Positions 1 to 12,920 of a stretch of DNA of 61,776 nt are shown piece by piece. The notes beneath the pieces were generated by a model that saw nothing but the letters and a program-made list of their open reading frames with translations, ran no database searches and had not been told where the DNA came from. Both the position numbers and the translations under genes were made by a program. Positions within the stretch are counted from its first letter, which is position 1; each line of letters opens with the position of its first letter. This DNA comes from Candidatus Venteria ishoeyi. GTDB lineage: Bacteria; Pseudomonadota; Gammaproteobacteria; Beggiatoales; Beggiatoaceae. Location: assembly GCF_030378065.1 (NCBI RefSeq), contig NZ_JAUCGJ010000026.1:1-61776 (forward strand), given 5' to 3'.

Positions 1-63
1 GATGATAAATTTATTTTTCTAGCGGCTGGATTATGGAACTTCAATCTGGAATGTAGAGGGTAA
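1..63 (+). CDS. Transposase, C-terminal fragment (IS5-like)
   Basis: Frame 1 is open from the window edge and ends at a TAA at 61-63, giving only the last 20 residues (DDKFIFLAAGLWNF...). The 'AGLWNF' tail resembles the end of DDE transposases of the IS5 superfamily, but so short a piece cannot be assigned alone. Support comes from context: 46 bases after the stop lies a terminal repeat that recurs at 61630 in front of a clear transposase start. The body of the gene is outside the window. Confidence 0.5.
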   Translation, partial: DDKFIFLAAGLWNFNLECRG

Positions 64-125
64 TTCATAGGGTAAACGGGCATGGGGCGGGAGTTTTTTT
101 AATTTAGGTTATTTGGCAACATCTC
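1..125 (+). mobile_element. Right end of an IS5-like insertion sequence
   Basis: The sequence TTATTTGGCAACATCTC at 109-125 is the exact reverse complement of GAGATGTTGCCAAATAA, which starts the element at 61630. I read them as the right and left terminal inverted repeats of the same IS family. The element is followed by TCA, and the copy at 61630 is preceded by TTA. Both fit the TNA target duplication typical of the IS1031-type branch of IS5. The two copies lie in the same orientation at the two edges of the window. Confidence 0.6.
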
Positions 126-290
126 TCATGAAAAATACCGAAAACCATCATTTATACTCATAGTACCACTTATCTTGTCAAGACATTTTTAATGCGATTG
201 CCCTGCAGGTCGGAGGCACTGATATTGACCTGTGTCATAAAATGTGTCAGCAATTCAGCAAAATTGTGGTTATTCAATGTTAACTTCTTC

Positions 291-2450
291 TTAATAGATG
301 AAATCTTCTGGTGCTGTCGGCGTGCCATGTGGGGCTTTTTTAATGCCAAAACGCGATAGGACATCATTGTGAATGGCGCAATCCAATGGTAATAAGTCGG
401 TAGTCTGCAGAAAACGTCCGGTGGTAGGCAGCAGACTGCTGCTGCCATAACTATCCGGCGTATCGATCAATACCTGACCATCAATACCCAGGCGCGAAGA
501 AGCGTTGATTTGGCTGTTCTGGGAAGATAAAAAATGATCTGCTGCAATGCTGATATTACCACCATTACCGACATCTGCCTGGGCTTTAATTTGTCCCTGG
601 TTCAAAGCAGCAACGCGTGGCTGCTGAATATTGATATTACCACCATCACCACTGCCGCCAAACACGCTGGTATTAATTTCGGATTTATGCAGATACAGTT
701 GTTGATTGATGTCAAGCTGGATATTACCGCCCGTTGCCTGGCTTGCGCTGGTACTGATGTTAGTACCGATTTCCAGGCTCAACTTATTGGCCTGCACATG
801 AATTCTTCCTGCATTACCCGCAGGCACGTCATCAAAAAAAGAATGGGAACTTGCTGATAAATAACTGGGGAAAGCTTGTGTGTCCTGACTTTTTCCCGTT
901 AATCGAATACTATCAGCCTGTAGCTGGATGTTGCCGCCATGACCTGCGCCAAAGGTTGAAGTATTGATGCCCGCACCCGCAGCTAATTCTATGTGGCGTG
1001 CACTGACATTAATATCCCCTCCAGTACCTGCTTCTATGGTATCTCCTAAGGACATGGATGATAAGCTTGCCTGCCCCATATATTGCTCGCTTTCCAGGTA
1101 AACGGTATCGCTTGCCTGTAATTGAATCGTTCCACCAGAACCGCTCCCCATAATACTGCTGCTGCTGATAAAGCCTCCATCCAATACCTTGATATTTTGA
1201 GCTTGAACATGAATATTACCCGCTTTGCCTGTTGCAAAATTAGCTGTTAAAAAAGAGGCACTATGAGATAAGCGCATCTCTTTTTCCAGTTCAATCTCAA
1301 TATCGCCGCCTTTACCTTCTCCAATCGTGGTACTGCTCAGACTGATACCCTTGGCAATAGCCAGGTTTTCAGCACTGATATGGATGGGTGCGCCGGATGC
1401 AGATAATGTAGAAGCGGTAATACTGCTTGAATCAAGCTGAATATCACCTGCCCAAATATCGATCATGCCTGCGGGACTAACGCCTCTGTTTTCTGCGAAA
1501 ATATGCCCATTTGACATCAATAATTTATCTGTCTGTAAGCGTATCTTACTACTGGGTGTTCCACTGACATTCAACCATGCCCGTTCCAGGGTGAAACTGC
1601 CAGACGGCTGGACATGAGATGGTGCATCATTGCCCAGAATAATTTCTCCTGTGCCTTGTTGGGTTATTAAATTTAATTCCCCACCAGAAACTGCCAGTAT
1701 GGGTACAGGTAGAAAGTCTACGACTTGTTGTACAGTTTTTGTTTCCAGCTCATAAATCTCTGCTTGATGGTAACCACCCTGAGTCAACACAATATCACCT
1801 GCAATTAATGACAAGGCTTTTCCTGAATTTACCGCAAGTTGTGGGATATAACCCCTCCGGTATTGCAAACTTTCTTCTTTACTCAAGCGTATCGACCCCA
1901 GATCGCCGCCACCCCTGATTTCAATTGGTGCTGAATTTGTTCCCAAAAAACCAAACTTGTCGGTAGGACTTATTGACAGGCTACTGTTTGTTTGTAAGTC
2001 AGTATAAAATCTTGCCCCATCCTCCATTTGTAAATAATTAGCCGTGCTGGCATGAAAACTCCCGGACATATCCAGACTGGCGTGTTCTCCAAAAAAAATA
2101 CCACTGGGATTTAATAAGTAGGTATTTGCGCCGGGAATGCTGTTTTTAATCATACCGTTAATATTTGATGGGCTGCCGCCGGTAACGCGGGAAATCACGT
2201 TTTCGACATGTGCCGCACCGGAAAAAACGGCGGTTTCACCCTGGGCAAGATTAAATGTCTGAAAAGAATGAAATAAATGATTACCAACAGTTTTCCCTAA
2301 ATCCTGAGTAATGGCATAAGCCTGGGTTTCGTTGGATAAGGACAGTTTGTGGGCTGCTCCAAGTGTACCATCGCTAACTATCTCAGCCAGCGCCACAGAA
2401 GTGGAAAGCCAGTACAGGGTGCAATAATTAAATAAAGTTGTAACTTTCAT
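291..2450 (-). CDS. Filamentous-haemagglutinin (TPS domain) exoprotein
   Basis: This 719-residue protein is probably the secreted partner (TpsA) of a two-partner secretion system. Residues 1-22 form a signal peptide ending in VALA. Residues about 24-150 carry the conserved TPS secretion domain, including the N-terminal 'GGSPSNINGMI' and 'LLNPSGIFFGE' signatures. The rest is a run of Gly/Asn-rich repeats such as 'GGNIQLQA' and 'GGDINVSA', as expected for a right-handed beta-helix that ends up on or outside the cell surface. It is short for the family and has a compact C-terminus with one Cys and no obvious toxin domain. No TpsB outer-membrane pore gene lies nearby, so the transporter must be elsewhere. 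Two palindromes upstream (2502-2561) may control it. The family is certain; the role (adhesion, filament sheath) is not. Confidence 0.88.
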   Translation of the reverse strand: MKVTTLFNYCTLYWLSTSVALAEIVSDGTLGAAHKLSLSNETQAYAITQDLGKTVGNHLFHSFQTFNLAQGETAVFSGAAHVENVISRVTGGSPSNINGMIKNSIPGANTYLLNPSGIFFGEHASLDMSGSFHASTANYLQMEDGARFYTDLQTNSSLSISPTDKFGFLGTNSAPIEIRGGGDLGSIRLSKEESLQYRRGYIPQLAVNSGKALSLIAGDIVLTQGGYHQAEIYELETKTVQQVVDFLPVPILAVSGGELNLITQQGTGEIILGNDAPSHVQPSGSFTLERAWLNVSGTPSSKIRLQTDKLLMSNGHIFAENRGVSPAGMIDIWAGDIQLDSSSITASTLSASGAPIHISAENLAIAKGISLSSTTIGEGKGGDIEIELEKEMRLSHSASFLTANFATGKAGNIHVQAQNIKVLDGGFISSSSIMGSGSGGTIQLQASDTVYLESEQYMGQASLSSMSLGDTIEAGTGGDINVSARHIELAAGAGINTSTFGAGHGGNIQLQADSIRLTGKSQDTQAFPSYLSASSHSFFDDVPAGNAGRIHVQANKLSLEIGTNISTSASQATGGNIQLDINQQLYLHKSEINTSVFGGSGDGGNINIQQPRVAALNQGQIKAQADVGNGGNISIAADHFLSSQNSQINASSRLGIDGQVLIDTPDSYGSSSLLPTTGRFLQTTDLLPLDCAIHNDVLSRFGIKKAPHGTPTAPEDFIY

Positions 2451-2501
2451 GTATCCATTTTAACGTAAACCCAATAGAAACGTCACCCTGTTGCATGAGG
2501 C

Positions 2502-2561
2502 GTTACTTTCATGTAACAAAGTTAGCTGAAAAAACCTTGCAGTTGTTACTTGATATGTAAC
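2502..2561. promoter_or_regulatory. Paired GTTAC-GTAAC palindromes, possible operator
   Basis: GTTACTTTCATGTAAC (2502-2517) and GTTACTTGATATGTAAC (2545-2561) share the same arms and differ only in the centre. They start 43 bases apart, about four helical turns, and lie 52-111 bases upstream of the TPS gene start on the minus strand. Two matched dyads on one face of the helix look like binding sites for a dimeric regulator. The regulator is unknown. Confidence 0.4.
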
Positions 2562-2680
2562 AGGCGGTTCGGGCTAAACTGACAGGCAAATATTTGTCAC
2601 TTGCCAGCATCGCTTGGCACCGACAATTTTATCAACCACCTGAACAGCGTCCGAGGTTTTTATCATGCCCACAACAATAA

Positions 2681-2791
2681 CTAGTACAGTAACTGGTAAA
2701 AACAAATAATAACTTCAGGACTGGCAGTCCTTAAAGGACTGCCAGTCCTACGCTCAAAGTTATTATGTAAACTTAGTGTTCGCTGTACTAG
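2681..2791. repeat. 111-base palindromic element (MITE-like)
   Basis: The ends are CTAGTACAG (2681-2689) and its exact complement CTGTACTAG (2783-2791). Inside are a second pair, AATAACTT/AAGTTATT (about 2707 and 2757), and a perfect 15-base pair, AGGACTGGCAGTCCT (2717-2731) against its complement at 2735-2749. Each inner arm is itself nearly palindromic. The nested design and lack of coding potential suggest a small non-autonomous transposable element or a structured RNA. I saw no second copy in the window. Confidence 0.55.
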
Positions 2792-2809
2792 GAAGCTGTC
2801 CGAGGATTA

Positions 2810-2845
2810 AAAAATACTGTCTCTTGTAAAGAGGCAGTATTTTTT
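2810..2845. terminator. Hairpin with A/T-rich flanks ahead of the RT remnant
   Basis: A 16-base stem (AAAAATACTGTCTCTT against AAGAGGCAGTATTTTT) with a three-base loop and one mismatch. With its A-run and T-run it could act as a bidirectional intrinsic terminator. It sits 50 bases before the reverse transcriptase start and could instead belong to an RNA associated with that gene. Confidence 0.5.
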
Positions 2846-2895
2846 ATCTGTTATAAGCAACAAAAACACCCTCCATTAAGACAGAAGGCAATATA

Positions 2896-3812
2896 ATGAA
2901 ATACTCATCACCTCAGATGTGGGGGAAAACCTCAAAAACAGGTTTTCAATCCACTGCAAGTCCTCATCTTCAAGCAGACTTAAAAACCTCTGCTCCACTG
3001 CTGACACAAACCCTCAGTGATAATAATTTAGATGTGGCACTAGCATGGTTATGCGACAGTGCGCAAGCGCAAGAACATAGCAATGTGCAGGATTACAGCC
3101 GCGACTGGGCTACCCACAAAGTACATTTGCAAGCACGTATACAAGCGGGTGAATTCCAATTCCAAACTGTGCATGAAGTTGAAATTCTGAGCAATGGCAA
3201 AAGTGAAATCCACGAATTGCGCTGTGCTGAAGACCGCTTATTGATTCGCGCCATTGCGCAAGTTTTACAACCTGTGTTTGCCGAACACATTGCACCTAAA
3301 TGTATACATTTAGCCGGTGGTACACAACAGGCAGTTGAAGCGTTCCACGCACAAATTAAAGCCAAGGCTTTAGAGATGAAATTGGATATCAAAAGCTATT
3401 ATGCCCACCTTGACCATTTTATTCTGCGCAGCCAGTTCAGCACCTTGTTAGTACAGGAAACCGAGCTACAGCGCCTGCTGTGGCAATTCATGCAACGCAC
3501 CGTAGAACGTGACGGTCATTATCGTAATATTAAGCAGGGGGTTCCCTTGGAAACTGCCTTATCCCCCCTGTTCGGTGCGCTCTATTTCAGCCCCTTACAC
3601 CACTTGTTTAGGAGTGAGGATGAAATAAATGCAGAAACTGGGCGCAGGATTTTTATTCATTTTCAAGGCGTGAAAACAGGCGCATAGCAAGCTATGTAAC
3701 TGTTTTCACAACGCAGAAAATGGAGGAAAAGACCAGCCAAGTTGCTGAAGTTATAAAATTCTCACTCCTTAATGATGATAACAGGCATTTTTATCACCGT
3801 TACGTGGATTGA
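2896..3812 (+). pseudogene. Reverse transcriptase (group II-like), interrupted and truncated
   Basis: The first 238 codons read as a retroelement-type reverse transcriptase. 'AEDRLLIRAI' (111-120) matches the entry region of the fold, 'DIKSYYAHLDH' (164-174) carries the motif-A Asp, and 'QGVPLETALSPLFGALY' (214-230) is the next conserved block. At 3611 a 158-base mobile element breaks the gene after 'LHHLF'. Removing the element and one TTA copy restores the frame as NDDNRHFYHRYVD, the expected F-Y-x-R-Y-x-D(D) catalytic block. A TGA at 3810 then replaces the second Asp and nothing of the thumb follows. The gene is therefore dead twice over: by insertion and by loss of its 3' part. The family is confident from the motifs; its exact class (intron, retron, other) is not resolved. 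Confidence 0.8.
3611..3768 (+). mobile_element. Small non-autonomous element, copy 1 (in RT gene)
   Basis: 158 bases with terminal repeats GGAGTGAG / CTCACTCC, flanked by direct TTA repeats (3608-3610 and 3769-3771) that behave as a target duplication. An internal hairpin (GAAAACAG...CTGTTTTC with CATAGC/GCTATG, about 3672-3707) adds structure. It encodes nothing. A second full copy lies at 10981-11150 and a fragment at 60302-60339. The TNA-type target matches the IS5-like elements at the window edges, which may supply the transposase. Confidence 0.8.
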
Positions 3813-3866
3813 TTCCTGTTTTTGTTCTATCATTAGGAATCTTTAGCAAAAAACATTATTTAGCTC

Positions 3867-5555
3867 ATGGATTACCAGATTCAAGGCGGAAATAAAGTCA
3901 CCCTGAAAGATCGGGATTTTATCGCGCAAGGCGGTGAAGCCAGTTTGTATGCCAAAGGCAATCAGGTATTTAAAATTTACACCGATCCCAAGGCAATGAT
4001 TCCACCCACCAAAATCCAGGAACTGGCTTGCCTGGATCGCAGCAATATTATTCGTCCCCAGGCGGTGTTATTGGATCAGCGGCAAAATCCGGTGGGTTTT
4101 AGCATGCAGCGCATCAAACAAAACGTGGCTCTGGCGCGTTTGTTTACCAATGATTATCAACGCAAGCAGGGATTGGATACCCAACATATCATCGCCTTGC
4201 TGGAGCAGATGCAGGAAACCATTGCTTTTATTCACAGCCAGCAGTGCCTGTTGGTGGATGGCAATGAAATGAATTATCTGGTGGACAGCAAATCCCATAA
4301 AAAAGTCTATTTTATTGATGTCGATTCCTGGCAAACACCCAGTTTTCCAGCAACCGCCATTTTACCCACCATACGTGATTATCACAGTTCACAGTTTTCG
4401 CCGTTGACTGACTGGTTTGCATTTGCGGTCATCAGTTGTCAGTTGTTTTTAGGTATACATCCGTATAAAGGTAGACATCCTGATTTTAAGAAACATGATT
4501 TAAGCGGGCGTATGCAGAACAATGTATCCATTTTTAATTCAGAGGTGTCTTTGCCTGCGGCGGTGCGTGATTTCAGCCTGATTCCCACACCCTGGCATGA
4601 CTGGCTACATGCCGTGCTGGAACAGGGACAGCGTAGCGCGCCACCCAGTGCGGGGGTTCCTGCTGCCTCCTCCATGCGCCCGGTTGTGCGTCCAAAAACC
4701 GTACACGGCAGTAATAACTTTATTATCACCCGTCTGGCTGAATATGACAGTCCCATTCGCGCAGTTTATGGGCGTAATGGGCAACGGGTGGTGGTTACTG
4801 CGGATAAATTGTATCTGGAAAATGCAGCCCATGCCTTGCCGCATCCCGCTGCACGTTTAATTGTTACCCCACAAAATCTGACACCTGTTTTTGCCTGGGT
4901 TGAGCAACAACAGCTTAAGCTGTTAAATGCCCATACCCAGGATATGCTGAATATCAGCTTGCAGGCTGCTCAGGTGCTGGTGGAAGATAATCAGTTATTT
5001 GTGATTTATCAGGAGCGGTGCACTGCCATACGTTTTCATGAGCTAGGCGGGAAGTGTCTGGCGGCTCCCGGTGCAAGCTGGCAGATTATGCCCCATGCCA
5101 CGCAGGTACTGGATGGTTTGTTATATCAGAATATTTTAGGGCAGCCGTGGCTGTTATTACCTTGGAAAAGTCAGTCCTGTGCCGTATTAGCCGTGCCGGA
5201 GTTGCGCGATTATCGTATTATGAGCGGACGTTACAGTCAGGGTATTGCCATGTTGACGGCTTATCGGCAAGGTCGTTATGATCGTTTCTGTTTTTGGTTT
5301 AATCCTGACCACAGCCAGTATCAACTGGAAAAAACTGAAAATATTGAGGCTGACAGCCATCATTTCATCTGTCTGCCCAGTGGCGTGGCTTTGCATTTAG
5401 TTGAGGATGGTGTTTTGTCCTTGTTCCACCGTGAACAAAGTCTCAGTAAACAAATTTTAGATCCCGTATTAACCACAAAAATGCAGCTTGCCAATAATGG
5501 CAGTATGGTATTGTTCTCTACAGAAAATGTACTTTATCAATTGAAAATGCAATGA
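3867..5555 (+). CDS. Protein kinase-like protein with C-terminal beta-rich domain
   Basis: This 562-residue cytosolic protein has a eukaryotic-like kinase fold in residues about 1-250. It shows a glycine-rich loop 'IAQGGEASLY' (19-28), the ATP-binding Lys in 'VFKIY' (K36), a catalytic-loop equivalent 'DGNEMNYLV' (D131, N136) and a metal-binding 'DVD' (151-153) instead of DFG. 'TDWFAFAV...GIHPYKG' follows. A Pro/Ala linker (about 250-275) leads to a 290-residue stretch with strand-like periodicity that could be a beta-propeller; that is a guess. There is no signal peptide. The stop overlaps the start of the NrtR-like gene by four bases (ATGA), so the two are probably translated together. Substrate and trigger are unknown. 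The HRD motif is degenerate, so activity is not guaranteed. Confidence 0.75.
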   Translation: MDYQIQGGNKVTLKDRDFIAQGGEASLYAKGNQVFKIYTDPKAMIPPTKIQELACLDRSNIIRPQAVLLDQRQNPVGFSMQRIKQNVALARLFTNDYQRKQGLDTQHIIALLEQMQETIAFIHSQQCLLVDGNEMNYLVDSKSHKKVYFIDVDSWQTPSFPATAILPTIRDYHSSQFSPLTDWFAFAVISCQLFLGIHPYKGRHPDFKKHDLSGRMQNNVSIFNSEVSLPAAVRDFSLIPTPWHDWLHAVLEQGQRSAPPSAGVPAASSMRPVVRPKTVHGSNNFIITRLAEYDSPIRAVYGRNGQRVVVTADKLYLENAAHALPHPAARLIVTPQNLTPVFAWVEQQQLKLLNAHTQDMLNISLQAAQVLVEDNQLFVIYQERCTAIRFHELGGKCLAAPGASWQIMPHATQVLDGLLYQNILGQPWLLLPWKSQSCAVLAVPELRDYRIMSGRYSQGIAMLTAYRQGRYDRFCFWFNPDHSQYQLEKTENIEADSHHFICLPSGVALHLVEDGVLSLFHREQSLSKQILDPVLTTKMQLANNGSMVLFSTENVLYQLKMQ

Positions 5556-6298
5556 CAGCAATCAAAGACAGCCGCCCAGCGGGGCTGGCGCATTATAAAA
5601 AACCCACGGTGATGGTGGATATTGTGATATTCACCATCGCAGATGATACTTTGAAAGTATTATTGATTAAACGCGGCATTCCTCCTTTTAAGGGACATTA
5701 TGCATTACCCGGTGGCGCAGTGCGGGTGGATACCGATATGAATCTGGAAGCCGCCGCGCAGCGGGAGCTGGAGGAGGAAACCGGAGTTGAGAATAATTAT
5801 CTGGAGCAGTTATATACCTATGGCGGCATAGATAGAGATCCGCGTGATTGGACGGTCAGTGTGGCTTATTTTGCCCTGGTCGCGAAACAGGATGTGCAAT
5901 TAAAAGCAGGGACCGATGCCGCAGAAGCTCATTGGCATAGCATTCAGGGTAACCGGGTGGAGTTGCCGCTGGCATTTGACCATGCCCCCATATTGCAAGA
6001 TGCCATAGAACGTTTGCGTGCCAAACTGGATTATACGGATATTGCAGTACATCTGTTGCCCGAAGAATTTACCTTAAGTGAATTTCAGCGCGTGTATGAA
6101 ATTATCATGCAGGAAAAGTTAAATAAAAGCTCATTTAGAAAACGCGTGAGTCGGGCTGAAATTGTGCAGCCTATTGCGGGAAAAATGCGCACAGGTTCCA
6201 ACCGCCCTGCACAGCTTTATCGTTTTACGGAAAATAAAACAGATCGTATGTTTTTTCCGCGCAGCATAGTCTGGGCGGAACGGGGGAAGCATGAATAA
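5552..6298 (+). CDS. nrtR: Nudix-related transcriptional regulator, NrtR family
   Basis: The 248-residue protein has an N-terminal Nudix domain (about 18-150) with a box ending 'RELEEETGV' (71-79). The upstream Glu of the classical box is replaced, as is common in NrtR proteins that bind rather than cleave ADP-ribose compounds. A winged-helix domain (about 160-245) would bind DNA. Known NrtR proteins repress NAD-synthesis or sugar genes and are released by ADP-ribose. Here no NAD gene is adjacent; the partner is the kinase-like gene, whose stop overlaps this start. The pair could sense ADP-ribose or NAD status, which is inference. A REP-like element begins just after the stop codon. Confidence 0.85.
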   Translation: MTAIKDSRPAGLAHYKKPTVMVDIVIFTIADDTLKVLLIKRGIPPFKGHYALPGGAVRVDTDMNLEAAAQRELEEETGVENNYLEQLYTYGGIDRDPRDWTVSVAYFALVAKQDVQLKAGTDAAEAHWHSIQGNRVELPLAFDHAPILQDAIERLRAKLDYTDIAVHLLPEEFTLSEFQRVYEIIMQEKLNKSSFRKRVSRAEIVQPIAGKMRTGSNRPAQLYRFTENKTDRMFFPRSIVWAERGKHE

Positions 6299-6300
6299 GC

Positions 6301-6370
6301 TGAATTCGACGTAAGCTTCTTTCAACGCTAAACGCATTAAAAACCGCTTCCGTCTCATGCTAAGTTATTG
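6301..6370 (+). repeat. REP-like 3'-end element, copy 1
   Basis: About 70 bases starting TGAATTCGACGTAAGC and containing CTCATGCT near the end. It lies two bases after the nrtR stop. Two relatives occur at 28489-28558 (same strand) and about 22036-22104 (opposite strand), each directly after a stop codon and in the sense direction of the gene. A 15-base direct repeat TGAATAAGCTGAATT brackets the region (6292-6306 and 6428-6442). Confidence 0.6.
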
Positions 6371-6454
6371 ATAGTACGCACTGGATTTTATGAGTTTTTG
6401 CTAAAAAACCTTATGTCAGGTTCAGCTTGAATAAGCTGAATTGAACTCAAATTA

Positions 6455-9400
6455 TTAATTCAGTTTTTCTTCAGACGTTAAAATTTGTGTGCACAGTATA
6501 TAAATAGGCTCATAATCATATACTTTTGTCAGTATTTCAAGGCGCTTTGCAATATCAGGATTTATTTCCCTGATTTGAGCAACAATATTATCGATTTGTT
6601 CTGCCTCCAGCGTTAATATTGCTTCATACAATAAATTTAACAGCGCCTTCGATAATTTTTTCAGGTCATCTACAGACAGTGCCGCAGTCTTTTGTGGAGG
6701 ATACGTTACTGCTTCTTGCGCATAGATATAACTCACCCCTAAATATTTATTCATCAATTCAAATACTTGAGGTATCAGGAAAGGTTTAGCGAGTATATCG
6801 TCACAACCCTCAAGCAGCACCTTGTTACGTTCTTTCTGAAAGACATTGGCTGTCAAGGCAACGATTTTAACCTGCTCACCACCAGACAAAGCACGAATTT
6901 TGGCTGTGGCAGCATAACCATCCATAACCGGCATTTGGATATCCAACCAGATAAAATGAGGTTGCCAAGTTTGGAATAATCTCACTGCATCCTCTCCGTT
7001 GACACCGGTTTTCACCTCAAACCCCACCTCAGTCAACACATTTTTGAGCAGGGTGCAACTATCCTGATCATCATCAACCACTAAAATCCGCCAGGCCTGC
7101 TGCCTGGGTTGTAAACCAAGCACTGACATAGCTTTATTTTTTTGGGTAATTTCCGCTGCTGTCTCCGGCACGTCCACGGCAATCAGGAAGCTGAAATACG
7201 TCCCTTCACCCAAGGTGCTTGTCACGCGCATCTCACCCCCAAGAAGCTCGACAAATTTACGGGAAATGGTCAAACCAAGGCCGGTGCCTTTCTGACCGGG
7301 CATATCCGGGGCAGCCTGTACAAAAGGTTTAAAAATATCATCCAACTTGCCTTTTGCAATCCCTTTGCCCGTGTCTTGCACCGCTACCTGTAAATACCAC
7401 TGCTCTGTTTCATATGCGGGTGGCAAAAGGCCTGCACGTAAATCAATGTTTCCCTGCGGGGTAAATTTAATGGCATTACCCAATAGATTGCTGATGATTT
7501 GGCGCAGCTTGCCGGGATCCGTTTTAATATGATGGCTCATATTGTCTTCTAACATCAGTTTAATGGAAATATTCTTAGACTGGGCACGGATACGGAACAT
7601 TTCCGTCATGTCTTGCAGCAATTGTTTGACATCAAATATTTCCAGATGTAACTCAATTTTGTTGGCTTCGATTTTGGATAGATCCAATACATCATTGATC
7701 ATCGCCAGCAGATGTTCACCGGCATGGTTGATGATGTCCAGACTTTCTTTTTGCTTGAGCGTCGTATCGGGCGCATTGACCATCAATTGGGAAAATCCCA
7801 AAATGGCATTAAGCGGGGTACGCAGTTCGTGTGACATGTTGGCAAGAAACAAACTCTTGGCACGATTGGCGCTTTCTGCGATTTCTTTCGCCTGCACCAG
7901 TGCGTGATTGGTGAGTTCCAGTTCTTCTGTGCGTTCTGCCACGCGCTGTTCAAGTTTTTCCTTGGCTTCTTGTAATGCCTGTTCGGCTTTAACCTGCTCG
8001 GTAATATCCTGGGCAATACCGCTGATAATAACCTCTTTACCCCTGCTTTCCCGCCCGATAGCACGATCATGCAGCCAGTGCCAGTCACCATGACGATCCT
8101 TAATCCGGTATTTGATTGCAAATGAATGACCCTTGATGGATTCTGCAATAGCTGCATCCACTTTGATGATATCTTCAGGATGGATAGCATCATGCCAAAT
8201 CATTGGATTATTCATAATCTCAGTTGGTGTATAACCTAAGCTTGTAGCCACACGTGGTGACCAGTAGAGCGATCCTTGAGTATTGGAAAACTGGTAGACC
8301 ATGTCACTCATATTTTCTACCAGTTCCCGAAAGCGTTTTTCACTCAGTCGCAAGGAGCGTTCTGCCTGGAGGCGCTCGGTAATATCCTGACCGATGGCTA
8401 AAAGTCCCACCACCTTGCCCCCTGTATCCTTGAGAGTCTGATCCCACCACTCAATTTCAACTTCCTTACCTTCCTTGGTCACTATGGGGTTGACATTGCC
8501 TTTGGTCTGAATTTCACCAATAGCATTAAGAAATATATTTCGTATTTGTTCCTGATCAGATTCAGGCAAAAAAGTCCTGAACCAGTCTTTGCCCTGGACT
8601 TCCTCCAGACAATAGCCGGAAATATTCTCCATATATGAATTAAAGCGTATGATCCGGCCTTTTGTATCAATCAATAAAACAATGGCTGGGGCTGTATTGA
8701 TTACACTTTCTGCAAAATTACGCTCGGCCCGTAAGGCTTCCTCCATCTCTTTGTGTATGCTGACATTCCTGAAACTAACCACTGCACCGATGATCTGTTG
8801 CTCATGCTTAATCTGTCTGGCATGAACCCAAACGGGAAAGCAGCTACCGTCAACACGGGTGAAAATCTGATCTTCCCGACTAACCCAATCATTATGCAAG
8901 GTTTGATGAACGGGACAGTCTTTTTTTAGCAAAGGCTGTCCATTGGCATCAAAATGGTGTATCAGCTTGTGCATGTCACGACCCAGCACCTCGGCGGTAT
9001 CACGATACCCCAACATTTCCAGGGCTGCCGGATTAATAAAAGTACAAAGCCCTTTTTCATCAATACCGTAAATACCTTCTCCCACGGTATTCAAAATCAG
9101 GCGCTGGCGTGCTTCCACTTCAGCAAGCTGGTGTTTGCTATCGCGTAGTGCTTGTTCTGCCTGCTTGCGTTCGCTAATATCATCAATAACACCATCCAGG
9201 TAACGAGTATTACTCTGCTCATTCAGAACACTCACACCTTTTTCATGCACCCAACGGATAGTTTGATCGGCATGGATGATTCGGTATTCAATCGTGAAAG
9301 GCCTTTGTTCCGCGACACTTTGCAAAACACGCTCTTCCACCATGCCAACATCATCAGGATGAATAACCGAGGCATAGGAGCGTACCTGGTTGGCAATGAA

Positions 9401-10738
9401 ATCAGCAGCCGGGTAGCCGGTCAAGGTTTCAATGCCTTCATTGATAAACGCCATAGTCCAGTTTTTATCACAAGCGCAGCGATAATTGACTCCTGCAATA
9501 TTTGATGCCAGTGTATGAAAATGCTGTTCGGCTTCTATACGTTCCTGGATATCACGGATACTGCTACGCAGGCCCTGATAAATCTTGTCCTGATCATAAA
9601 TTGGCTGAAATGACACAGCGACCCAGCGTTGTGAGCCATTTTTATGACACATGCGAAATGGAATATCATTGGCAGAAATATGTTCTTGCAATGCCCTGCA
9701 ATGCAGTTTGAACATACGCTCCCGATCTTCTTTGGCAATCACCTTGGAAAAACGATCCTGCAAGTGCATGTATTCCTCTGGCTTGTACCCGGTAAACCGC
9801 TCCACTGAGGGATTAACCCAGGCTACTTGCGCATCAGGCATGGTCCAGACTTCCATGTCATAACTGTAATTAGCAATTGCCCGAAAGTGGGCTTCGCTCA
9901 CCCGCAATTGTTCTGCATTGGATTTCTGTTCCTGAGCAGAAGTGACAATTTGTTGCAGTGGATAGCGGATGATAGACAGGTAAACCACCCAGAGTGAGAA
10001 AATTTTAAAAATATGTCCAACCAGATTGCTCAAGCCATAAACACTGATATAAAAGCTAAAGGCTAACTCGGAAATGGCGCTAAACAACAGTACCAACCCC
10101 AGCGCCATGAATATTTCAGTATCCAGTTTTTTGCGGTATACATAAAAATGCAGCCAGACAATAAACAGCAGCAGGATAATAAAGTACTCGGTGTAAATCT
10201 TAAATGGGGTCAGTCCCTGACCTTCAATATAGCAGTCAGGGAACCAGCCGTGGCTGATAGTCCATAATACAAACAGTGTTACTATGCCAAGGCCTAAAAA
10301 TAACCAGCTTCTGTTCACCGAGCGGCGGATGAAAAGGGGGGCGCTGAGCAAAAACAGGGCTTCGAGAAAACGGGCGCTAATCCATAGCTGGGTGGAAAGG
10401 TTGGCATCGGTATCGGTGGCAGGAAAAATGCCCATGCCCTTGTAGGTCACGGTATGGAGTAAGTCGATCCCGGCTAACCAAAAATAACCAATACTCAGGT
10501 ACATCAACAGGTGGTGCCTGGTGTATCCGTAGCAATGCCACATCACCGTCAGCATGGCCCAAGCCACCCCAATGGCAAAAAACTCTGCACTAACATGAAA
10601 TAACAGGTAGTTGTAGTGACTTATGAGTATCAGCAGTACCGCCATAAACAGTGGCGTGAGGGTGTTGCGCCAGGCAAATAATTTATCGGCAAGTAAATTC
10701 ATTTTTATCGGCATGTTTAGGTCCGCTCTAAATAACAC
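6455..10738 (-). CDS. Hybrid sensor histidine kinase, MASE3-PAS(5)-HisKA-HATPase-REC
   Basis: This 1427-residue inner-membrane sensor begins with a MASE3-like multi-helix region (about 20-265). Five PAS units follow, starting near 'HFRAIANYSYD', 'FHTLASNIAG', 'LILNTVGEGIYG', 'NFAESVINTAPA' and 'RFRELVENMSDM'. A coiled stretch leads to the phospho-acceptor box 'MSHELRTPLN', then the ATPase boxes 'NLLGNAIKF', 'DTGKGIA' and 'GTGLGL', and a receiver domain with 'VVDDDQD' and the acceptor Asp in 'WLDIQMPVMDG'. An 80-residue helical tail ends the protein and is also present in the paralogue at 60363, so it is probably a family trait. There is no output domain, so phosphate must pass to another protein. 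The ligand cannot be read from sequence. It is monocistronic. Confidence 0.93.
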   Translation of the reverse strand: MLFRADLNMPIKMNLLADKLFAWRNTLTPLFMAVLLILISHYNYLLFHVSAEFFAIGVAWAMLTVMWHCYGYTRHHLLMYLSIGYFWLAGIDLLHTVTYKGMGIFPATDTDANLSTQLWISARFLEALFLLSAPLFIRRSVNRSWLFLGLGIVTLFVLWTISHGWFPDCYIEGQGLTPFKIYTEYFIILLLFIVWLHFYVYRKKLDTEIFMALGLVLLFSAISELAFSFYISVYGLSNLVGHIFKIFSLWVVYLSIIRYPLQQIVTSAQEQKSNAEQLRVSEAHFRAIANYSYDMEVWTMPDAQVAWVNPSVERFTGYKPEEYMHLQDRFSKVIAKEDRERMFKLHCRALQEHISANDIPFRMCHKNGSQRWVAVSFQPIYDQDKIYQGLRSSIRDIQERIEAEQHFHTLASNIAGVNYRCACDKNWTMAFINEGIETLTGYPAADFIANQVRSYASVIHPDDVGMVEERVLQSVAEQRPFTIEYRIIHADQTIRWVHEKGVSVLNEQSNTRYLDGVIDDISERKQAEQALRDSKHQLAEVEARQRLILNTVGEGIYGIDEKGLCTFINPAALEMLGYRDTAEVLGRDMHKLIHHFDANGQPLLKKDCPVHQTLHNDWVSREDQIFTRVDGSCFPVWVHARQIKHEQQIIGAVVSFRNVSIHKEMEEALRAERNFAESVINTAPAIVLLIDTKGRIIRFNSYMENISGYCLEEVQGKDWFRTFLPESDQEQIRNIFLNAIGEIQTKGNVNPIVTKEGKEVEIEWWDQTLKDTGGKVVGLLAIGQDITERLQAERSLRLSEKRFRELVENMSDMVYQFSNTQGSLYWSPRVATSLGYTPTEIMNNPMIWHDAIHPEDIIKVDAAIAESIKGHSFAIKYRIKDRHGDWHWLHDRAIGRESRGKEVIISGIAQDITEQVKAEQALQEAKEKLEQRVAERTEELELTNHALVQAKEIAESANRAKSLFLANMSHELRTPLNAILGFSQLMVNAPDTTLKQKESLDIINHAGEHLLAMINDVLDLSKIEANKIELHLEIFDVKQLLQDMTEMFRIRAQSKNISIKLMLEDNMSHHIKTDPGKLRQIISNLLGNAIKFTPQGNIDLRAGLLPPAYETEQWYLQVAVQDTGKGIAKGKLDDIFKPFVQAAPDMPGQKGTGLGLTISRKFVELLGGEMRVTSTLGEGTYFSFLIAVDVPETAAEITQKNKAMSVLGLQPRQQAWRILVVDDDQDSCTLLKNVLTEVGFEVKTGVNGEDAVRLFQTWQPHFIWLDIQMPVMDGYAATAKIRALSGGEQVKIVALTANVFQKERNKVLLEGCDDILAKPFLIPQVFELMNKYLGVSYIYAQEAVTYPPQKTAALSVDDLKKLSKALLNLLYEAILTLEAEQIDNIVAQIREINPDIAKRLEILTKVYDYEPIYILCTQILTSEEKLN

Positions 10739-11639
10739 AGCACTAATAGTTTTTGATGATGTTGGCTGCGATAAATAACATTTTCTAGCCGTTCATTTTA
10801 CACTGTCATTAGTAAAGTTGATGGTTTTATAGACCAGCACACCCATGGGCATTGTTCTCCAGCAGCTTTTGGCATAATTTGCGAATCACATCAATTATGC
10901 TATTTATACTGTTGTTCTGGGTGGATATTTCGTGATAGTTATAGCCGGGAATAGATATGATGGGAATACCATCATCGTTAGGAGTGAGAATTTTATAACT
11001 TCAGCAACCTGGCTGGTCTTTTTCTCCATTTTCTGCGTTGTGCCTGTTTGGACTTAGGCAGTTACATAGCTTGCTATGCGCCTGTTTTCACGCCTTGAAA
11101 ATGAATAAAAATCCTGCGCCCAGTTTCTGTATTTATTTCATCCTCACTCCTTAGTATGCTTGATGGCACTGCTAATTTGCAAAAGTGGTCACAGCAACGG
11201 GTGATGAATGGTAGCAAACAACAGGGTCATCAGGGGTTTAATGAGGTTGTGGAGCAGTACTGATGTAGATGGTAATTGTGCCAAGTTTAACCCCGGAAGT
11301 ACTGATAATGCTTGCACAGTTCAATTTCAGTGGCAAGCAGGGTATCGTATTCGTTGGGTGCGTAGGCTTCGATAAGGATGGCAATATTCTTCTGTAAGCT
11401 TGCGATGCTCAAAGTAGAGTTTTGTTTCATCGCTACTATCATTTTAGGTATACAAAACAACAACAAGCATTGTCACGCTAACCATCCCCAGCAGGCGGTA
11501 AAGCGAGCTGTTACTATTGCCCTGCCATGACACGCTGCTGGCCTACTTCGCTGCTATTCCCAATACATTGCGCAGAATAATAGCAAGCTGGTTGTCAATA
11601 TTCTCGTTTGATATGTGTTTATATAAAAGTCTGATTAAT
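10739..11639. other. 0.9 kb spacer with gene remnants and a mobile element
   Basis: No intact gene is evident. On the minus strand a frame ending near 10838 reads '...NDDGIPIISIPGYNYHEI...' and '...VIRKLCQKLLENN...', which looks like the tail of a former protein. The small element at 10981-11150 interrupts it, and removing the element with one TTA joins 'SSAIKHT' to 'NDDGIP' in frame. Further upstream a 47-codon frame (11287-11430, minus) starts MKQNSTLSIASL and ends in a stop. I could not name either piece. The last 180 bases before rho hold nothing I recognise. Confidence 0.45.
10981..11150 (-). mobile_element. Small non-autonomous element, copy 2
   Basis: 170 bases, inverted relative to copy 1 at 3611. 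It has the same ends (GGAGTGAG/CTCACTCC) and the same flanking TTA repeats (10978-10980, 11151-11153). The sequence is nearly identical to copy 1 except for about 12 extra bases beside the internal hairpin. It splits a degenerate reading frame. Confidence 0.8.
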
Positions 11640-12920
11640 TCAGGTTCGCTTCAAGGTTCCTTTGATATTTTTCATTGCCACAAAAAATTCTTCATTGGTT
11701 TTAGTAATTTTCATGCGTTCCAGTAAAAATTCCATTGCGGCCAATTCGTCCATTTGCTGGAAAATCTTACGTAAAATCCACATGCTTTGCATTTCTTCCG
11801 GCGTTGTCAGTAATTCCTCACGACGTGTGCCGGAGCGATTAATATTCATTGCCGGATAAACGCGTTTTTCAGAGATTTTACGATCCAGATGAATTTCATT
11901 ATTGCCCGTGCCTTTGAACTCTTCATAAATCACATCATCCATACGTGATCCGGTTTCAACCAGCGCCGTGGCGATAATGGTTAAACTACCACCTTCTTCA
12001 ACATTTCTGGCAGCGCCAAAAAAGCGCTTGGGACGTTGCAGGGCATTGGCATCAACCCCACCGGTTAATACCTTGCCGGAAGAAGGCGCAACGGTATTAT
12101 AAGCGCGCGCCAGACGAGTGATAGAATCAAGCAGGATAACCACATCCTTTTTATGCTCAACCAGACGTTTGGCTTTTTCAATGACCATTTCCGCAACCTG
12201 AACATGCCGGGTTGCCGGTTCATCAAAGGTACTGGAAACCACTTCACCGCGTACTGAACGATCCATTTCCGTCACTTCTTCTGGGCGCTCATCAATTAAT
12301 AATACGATCAGATAGCATTCAGGATGATTATTGGCAATTGACTGGGCAATATTTTGCAGCATCATGGTCTTGCCGGATTTTGGTGGTGATACAATCAGAC
12401 CACGCTGTCCCTTTCCGATGGGCGCAACCAACTCAATAATTCTGGGGGTTAAATCTTCAGTGGAACCATTACCCAGTTCCAGGGTAAAGCGATCATTGGC
12501 AAACAGTGGGGTTAAATTTTCAAATAAAACTTTATTACGGGCATTTTCCGGCCCATCAAAATTAATTTCACTGACTTTTAATAGGGCAAAATAACGTTCA
12601 CCATCTTTAGGGGGACGAATTTTGCCGGCAATGGTGTCACCGGTGCGTAAATTAAAACGTCGAATTTGGCTGGGGGAAACATAAATATCATCGGGACCTG
12701 CAAGATAGGAGCTATCACTGGAGCGCAGAAAACCAAAACCATCCTGGAGGATTTCCAATACGCCGTCACCAAAAATATCTTCACCTTTTTTAGCGTGCGC
12801 TTTGAGCAGAGCAAAAATAATATCTTGTTTGCGGGAACGTGAAGTACCCTCAATTTTCATTTTCTGAGTAAGCTTATTGAGTTGAGTGGCACTTTGCTTT
12901 TTCAGTTCAGTTAAATTCAT
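11640..12920 (-). CDS. rho: Transcription termination factor Rho
   Basis: The 426-residue protein is close to the usual Rho length (about 419). It forms a hexameric RNA helicase that ends transcription at Rho-dependent sites. An N-terminal helical and cold-shock-like RNA-binding region (about 1-130, with 'DGFGFLRS') is followed by the ATPase core with Walker A 'PPKSGKT', '[11 protein letters not shown]' and '[11 protein letters not shown]'. The start is an ATG. The gene lies 251 bases downstream of trxA on the same strand, the standard gammaproteobacterial trxA-rho order. The long leader before rho fits the autoregulation known for this gene, but I identified no specific attenuator in it. Confidence 0.97.

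Follow-up and report, generated by a model that had tools for sequence, protein, structure and literature searches.

What kind of gene lies broken at positions 2896 to 3812 of this DNA, what broke it, and what do its relatives do? The DNA analysed, here called the window, is a stretch of 61,776 nucleotides from Candidatus Venteria ishoeyi. It is almost certain that the locus carries a dead reverse transcriptase (RT) of the UG4 class with a MITE inside it. Taken alone a broken RT gene is ordinary decay. We propose that UG4 is tied to the exchange of surface-protein domains, by a mechanism that we infer below, and we put the probability of the overall explanation (i.e. a dead UG4 remnant of a family tied to surface-domain exchange) at about 0.8. 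The pattern gives the UG4 class a testable job. The features of the locus are the following.

291 to 2450, minus strand: 719-aa protein with a TPS (two-partner) secretion domain, divergent (PF05860, 5.9e-33)
2896 to 3610, plus strand: N-terminal part of a UG4-class RT pseudogene (PADLOC RT_UG4; 57% identity to L036)
3608 to 3610, no strand: target-site duplication TTA, left copy, read from the sequence
3611 to 3768, plus strand: MITE-like palindromic element of 158 bp, with ends GGAGTGAG...CTCACTCC
3685 to 3687, plus strand: TAG stop of the RT frame, within the element
3769 to 3771, no strand: target-site duplication TTA, right copy, read from the sequence
3772 to 3812, plus strand: RT frame resumed 3′ of the element, NDDNRHFYHRYVD and then TGA; gapless match to L036 STDAKHFYRRYMD
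3867 to 5555, plus strand: kinase-like gene, downstream (Pkinase match below the Pfam cut-off)

The inserted element is a near-palindrome, with arms that are 76% complementary. It folds as one long hairpin with a calculated energy of -67.6 kcal/mol (z = -10.5), and none of 200 shuffled sequences was equally stable. The exact site TTAGGAGTGAG, comprising an element end plus TTA, occurs 140 times in the 4.4-Mb genome, compared with once for a reversed control pattern; since each TTA-flanked copy can match the pattern once, there are about 140 copies. A search of the organism's own genome, in which the best 40 of 342 first-look candidates were scored, listed 63 matches. Forty of these are 98–100% identical, while the remaining 23 (69–89%) are mostly opposite-strand readings of the same copies, or pieces. 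Thirty copies including that of the window were fetched, and a matching 3-bp TNA duplication is found in 27 of the 29 with both flanks readable, the exceptions being L007 and L013. With its short length, terminal inverted repeats, target duplication and high copy number, the element has the properties of a MITE. The earlier note had proposed that a small transposon with an exact TTA target duplication splits the gene, and both the sequence and the TNA-flanked copies bear this out. With three further genomic copies the one at this locus shares 100% identity across all 164 bases of the comparison, which suggests a recent arrival.

The TNA duplications recall those of the IS5/IS1031 group. The genome has eight matches to the transposase model DDE_Tnp_1 and none to DDE_Tnp_1_2; no pair of exact element ends was seen to flank the transposase in the eight DDE_Tnp_1 loci, one of which (L144) is near a contig end. 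At L141 a single exact element-type end follows TTA at 1350–1360, near a broken DDE transposase, where a second exact end was not found. Another copy of the MITE, of 170 bp, is present in the window at 10981–11150 in the opposite orientation. It is flanked by TTA and lies just outside a large sensor kinase-like gene (6455–10738).

The identity of the broken gene emerges when the insert is removed. Doing this in a script joins ...HHLF to the 13 residues NDDNRHFYHRYVD, followed by a stop. The nearest relative, L036, which is 57% identical to the window RT, has ...VLF-STDAKHFYRRYMDDW at the same position. The joined flanks align with STDAKHFYRRYMD of L036 without a gap over the junction, giving a BLOSUM sum of 46 where the maximum of 4638 control windows was 17. 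L036 is the same gene as L059 of Candidatus Halobeggiatoa sp. HSG11 (100% identity over the RT), and its genome belongs to the family of the window organism. The match is residue for residue across the empty site, confirming the view that the broken gene encoded an RT. All 238 codons 5′ of the insertion are free of stops, and the motif A Asp is retained in MKLDIKSYYA. As it stands the frame (2896–3687) enters the element and terminates at its TAG. The residues encoded by the element were considered as a natural end of the RT; this was rejected because the inserted stretch is a genome-wide repeat. The corresponding check suggested earlier, on the C-terminal stretches of 80 related loci inspected by eye, revealed none that end in this way.

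To which type the RT belongs (intron, retron or other) had been left as a question, and profile and tree together answer UG4. The best PADLOC model for the window RT is RT_UG4 (E = 6.4e-36, 122 bits), the next model scoring 60 bits, and in the five relatives scanned RT_UG4 again comes first with a wide lead. The model is matched at ≤1e-10 by all 81 alignment rows, including three outgroup RTs that we call DGR-like (resembling those of diversity-generating retroelements) from their motifs; because these match too, the match alone is not proof of membership. In a tree of 46 rows, 42 including the window are split from four outgroup rows with support of 98/96, and the window RT groups with L059, L060 and L063 with support of 100/99. 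UG4-related RTs in the tree come also from Cyanobacteriota, Planctomycetota and Bacteroidota; the accessible text of a published account has UG4 in Proteobacteria only (PMC4244168). No retron model is among the NCBIfam matches of the window RT, and no intron RNA was matched in Rfam at gathering score in positions 1–12000 of the window.

What, then, do the intact relatives look like? According to the accessible text of one paper, 66% of UG4 cases in complete genomes co-occur with fimbrial domains (PMC8934634), and neither there nor in that of PMC4244168 is a function assigned to the class. In the closest relatives of the window RT (L059, L060 and L063) the RT frame runs on into a domain that is predicted to be exported. 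Judged by eye, the frame of these three and of two Parabeggiatoa RTs leads to a signal-like hydrophobic segment, 3′ of which come an exported-looking part, a C-terminal hydrophobic segment and a basic tail. Other UG4 RTs overlap the genes of PEP-CTERM proteins or inverse autotransporters tail to tail, or precede fimbrial genes. By a length rule (at least 240 residues counted from motif C) the RT is fused in nine of 77 loci, including those of Klebsiella and Cedecea. In L094, L092 and L093 from these two genera one long frame runs from the UG4 RT into an apparent secreted adhesin, with a signal-like segment in mid-frame; Pfam recognizes the RT part only.

The neighbours of the RT were analysed statistically in 77 of 80 loci, the three DGR-like loci being dropped. 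Convergent downstream neighbours within 400 bp are predicted to be exported in 22 of 35 cases, compared with 86 of 427 other genes (odds ratio 6.7, p = 2e-7, for loci that are not phylogenetically independent); the other 13 convergent neighbours are not predicted to be exported. Neither co-directional neighbours (6/22, p = 0.28) nor upstream neighbours (14/48, p = 0.10) are significantly enriched for exported genes. The export predictor is home-made and was tightened from a background of 115/494 to 86/427, and these statistics come from the tightened version. Ten convergent partners were chosen by hand as exported-looking; PEP-CTERM models match nine of them, most below curated cut-offs, and six have scores above the cut-off that the PEP-CTERM domain model sets.

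A relative of the Klebsiella RT is present in 47 of 72,556 plasmid records, 35 of the 47 being typed as conjugative. Six plasmid loci were opened, of which five have fimbrial genes and one a tail-to-tail inverse autotransporter. Two loci on E. coli chromosomes were also opened and showed no fimbrial operon; in one of them an autotransporter gene lies at a distance of some 1.5 kb, and in the other a pyocin-domain gene and hhe are nearby. The Klebsiella fusion gave no match in E. coli genomes, and the Serratia and Tenebrionibacter queries each gave matches in four of 5426, too few for comparison at the level of strains.

For the close pairs that we compared, homology mostly breaks off at the 3′ end of the RT or near it, and the adjoining surface domain differs. 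Such breaks recur in Beggiatoa relatives, Alteromonadales, Desulfobacterales and Enterobacterales. In the HSG genomes the RT DNA of L059, L060 and L063 is 86–87% identical, and beyond the RT nothing matches. L102 and L106 (Serratia and Rahnella) have 5.9 kb in common, to within 4–16 nt of the RT end. The pair L092/L093 also has 5.9 kb in common up to the RT end, followed by divergence and by renewed agreement near the end of the gene, and the match between L067 and L069 stops 90–99 nt before the RT end. Five Alteromonadales loci (L086, L095, L097, L103 and L134) have a DNA match that ends about 10–66 nt past the RT stop; for L121 and L126, whose frames end early, it ends 139–214 nt past it. 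Of these loci L095, from Colwellia sp. MB3u-41, has a UG4–PEP-CTERM pair that looks intact. In a plasmid pair from E. coli and E. marmotae (L248/L249) the usher is 95% identical, the chaperone 94% and the RT 97%, the next gene is 26% identical, and further downstream nothing aligns.

Partner bodies and tails were compared in 28 of the 80 loci, picked by hand. In six Alteromonadales loci the bodies are 22–33% identical, mostly over short alignments, and the tails 70–87%; tails are conserved in this way in one Alteromonadales subset only. Against the pattern of breaks, L061 and L062 keep 63% identity in the exported part. In L076, L078 and L080 the last 80 or so residues of the RT differ, and the partner tails are not well conserved. 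These three RTs are 88–90% identical in DNA, and their C-terminal region looks as if it were a swappable module.

RT 3′ ends are also found without the RT core. Matches to the PEP-CTERM tails number 53, in seven of eight genomes, and 30 were fetched and inspected. Eight have a long, partly broken RT alongside, and seven (six distinct, L162 and L168 being 100% duplicates) have a C-terminal RT piece only; no RT sequence was detected alongside the other 15. Four distinct stand-alone pieces start within about 12 nt of each other at a common 5′ boundary, some 190 nt short of the RT end, and the sequence past this boundary is unrelated; L164 and L175 have other boundaries. Nine of 30 fetched loci with matches to the RT C-terminus were inspected and judged by eye. 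Five (L216, L221, L223, L227 and L228) encode predicted exported proteins that start with the last part of the RT, the core being absent; the other four are fragments or, in L234, an RT of group II type. In the core-less pieces L216, L221, L226 and L232 the matches begin at residues 10–15 counted from the Tyr of motif C.

A Salmonella plasmid has two inverse autotransporters that are identical for about 1450 residues and differ in the last 450 or so. Both are followed by RT 3′ DNA that is 96% identical over 535 bp, in a comparison covering two of the three RT places on this plasmid. One RT is complete, and only residues 172–372 of the other match. An IS110 transposase gene lies about 100 bp from the end of the shortened RT, whose truncation may thus be the work of an insertion sequence, and stand-alone RT ends could in general be remnants of deletion. 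In L247 (Salmonella plasmid, 24 kb) the two halves, each made of autotransporter and RT, face each other as inverted copies, with a gene for a tyrosine-type DNA invertase at each outer end and a RelE/ParE–RelB/DinJ pair between the halves. Group II introns (Rfam RF01999, RF00029) come after the YMDD-coding motif in three UG4 RT genes of one genome, L112, L117 and L136 (Paraglaciecola sp. MB-3u-78). In L098 (Symploca) a GTGTGCG start comes after the FMDDW codons, where Rfam gave no match.

For the family as a whole, then, the RT, or its 3′ end alone, would travel with a surface gene, and the domain beside the RT would be replaced between relatives. The activity of the RT, making cDNA of its own 3′ region and of the neighbouring surface gene, might drive this exchange, a suggestion from sequence comparison that we make tentatively and to which we give rather poor odds; adhesins evolve fast without an RT, and we have weighed this against it. 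We would give a little less credence again to the fuller version, that UG4 RTs might be the engine of surface variation in several phyla, copying the RNA of the RT 3′ end plus surface gene into a cDNA that swaps the outer domain and leaves RT 3′ scars on genes that have no RT. The outer domains meant are fimbrial adhesins, inverse autotransporters, PEP-CTERM proteins and fused exported domains. In the open-licence literature that we searched, as far as its text was accessible, no description of this pattern of RT and surface protein was found; the reverse transcriptase of PMC3419637 is a laboratory reagent.

The RT could be a passenger, in which case fast-evolving adhesins and PEP-CTERM proteins would be exchanged by ordinary recombination with UG4 merely alongside. 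The chances of this are somewhat below even. The pilin of the RT operon in L248/L249 has likewise diverged (50% identity), many UG4 loci have no predicted exported neighbour, and the proportion of conjugative plasmids among the RT carriers indicates high mobility. Against a passenger, breaks at or near the RT 3′ end recur in four groups, and core-less RT 3′ ends are placed on surface genes in several genera.

These core-less ends could be read in another way, with UG4 as a mobile retroelement: it would insert its own 3′ end at the 3′ ends of surface genes and so supply a new sorting tail. The variability of partners would then reflect new insertion sites rather than diversification of one gene. 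The Alteromonadales set in which unrelated partner bodies accompany a similar RT and partner end agrees with this, as do the stand-alone pieces with their common 5′ boundary at four distinct loci. However, fimbrial operons keep kilobases of upstream synteny while the gene after the RT changes, and the boundaries of L164 and L175 fall elsewhere; overall we think that such an element is unlikely.

A role in defence against phage, with the surface protein as receptor or sensor partner, is more doubtful still. PADLOC includes RT_UG4 among its models of defence RTs (label DRT), the membrane-anchored fusions could be sensors, and the anti-phage gene hhe lies about 2 kb downstream at one E. coli chromosomal locus; but it is the surface part that varies while the RT is conserved, and five of the six plasmid loci opened are fimbrial operons. 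We favour the exchange of surface domains, with the passenger and mobile-element readings close by.

We return to the window, where the copy of the RT is dead for more than one reason. The TGA at 3810–3812 falls inside catalytic motif C, which therefore reads YVD and then stop; an intact motif (YxDD) is absent, and seven codons separate this stop from the next one in frame. The truncation at the motif is thus a lesion besides the element, as was noted earlier. That the second Asp had been replaced by a stop stands insofar as there is a stop at that position; the change of an Asp codon and the deletion of that codon, exposing a mutated Trp codon, both fit. The C-terminal RT region and the exported domain of the closest relatives are absent at the locus. 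The 96-residue piece of L036 from motif C onward gave no match in the window genome at E up to 10, a search made with no positive control and so weak evidence; the other RT matches in this genome are four in number and remote (22–30% identity). Twenty-three alignment columns are conserved in 90% or more of 41 other RTs. Six of them are changed in the window RT, compared with zero to four in each of the 41. Its end branch in the tree is long (0.53); those of its three sisters are 0.035–0.07, on a common branch of 0.16.

Two claims made previously are not supported by this evidence. Excision would not restore the catalytic motif, since even the rejoined frame stops after YVD and lacks the second Asp; nor did the small transposon kill the gene alone, given the missing C-terminal region and the changed conserved positions. 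It is accordingly very improbable that the RT was functional until the insertion and could be repaired by excision, for although the insertion is clean, the frame rejoins exactly and the 238 codons before it lack stops, the YVD-stop, the undetected C-terminal region and the six altered positions all count against this.

The ancestor of the window RT most likely resembled the intact L059, L060 and L063 in having an RT followed by a signal-like segment and by an exported domain anchored in the membrane at its C-terminus; that its exported domain was fused is, in our judgement, quite probable. From the second catalytic Asp onward nothing of the gene is left, so that the 3′ half of the RT and probably an exported domain are gone; substitutions have accumulated at conserved positions, and the 158-bp non-autonomous transposon inserted as well, most likely later. 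To judge from the identity of its copies, the insertion appears to have come late, in a gene with several other lesions that are most likely older. The break of the window RT lies in the zone of motif C, as do the Paraglaciecola introns and the starts of the matches of L216, L221, L226 and L232; this zone may be a hot spot.

No surface gene stands at the RT 3′ end in the window, the 3′ part being lost and the next gene kinase-like; a gene for a secreted TPS-domain protein lies upstream and is divergent. Between that gene and the RT remnant are two short hairpins, at 2717–2749 and 2808–2846, with 16-bp perfect and 18-bp near-perfect arms. Among 39 other genomes that were searched, four have an orthologue of the kinase-like neighbour, and the stretches fetched from these four relatives showed no RT next to it. 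The search for an empty site in relatives, which had been recommended, thus yielded no element-free orthologous locus among the 39 genomes searched by way of this neighbour. Either the RT entered the window's lineage at this place or it was lost in the other lineages.

The MITEs of Candidatus Thiomargarita nelsonii, a related sulfur bacterium, are, in the accessible text of their description, like the window element in being small, palindromic, present in very many copies and found also inside genes (PMC4853749). The hupL MITE of that organism has 10-bp direct repeats and 19-bp inverted repeats according to the same text, whereas the window element has a 3-bp TNA target duplication and different ends (PMC4853749). 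The window RT resembles the group II intron model TIGR04416 at 47 bits, compared with a cut-off of 300, and the GsI-IIC RT is the best solved relative of L036. In comparison with UG4 as published, the window copy is dead and is without the C-terminal part, while the relatives analysed here have an in-frame predicted exported domain, or PEP-CTERM or inverse-autotransporter partners. The known fimbrial link of UG4 is thereby extended to PEP-CTERM, autotransporter and fused membrane-anchored proteins.

In DGRs an RT is tied to a variable protein that is often exposed at the surface. The combination of an RT with a variable surface protein prompted the idea that these loci are DGRs; the tree, in which the DGR-like rows form a separate branch, and the differences, which are of whole domains, speak against it. 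In UG4 loci whole domains differ, rather than single sites as in DGRs. If RT activity does drive the exchange, UG4 would join DGRs as a second way in which retroelements vary the cell surface, and one that works with whole domains instead of point changes.
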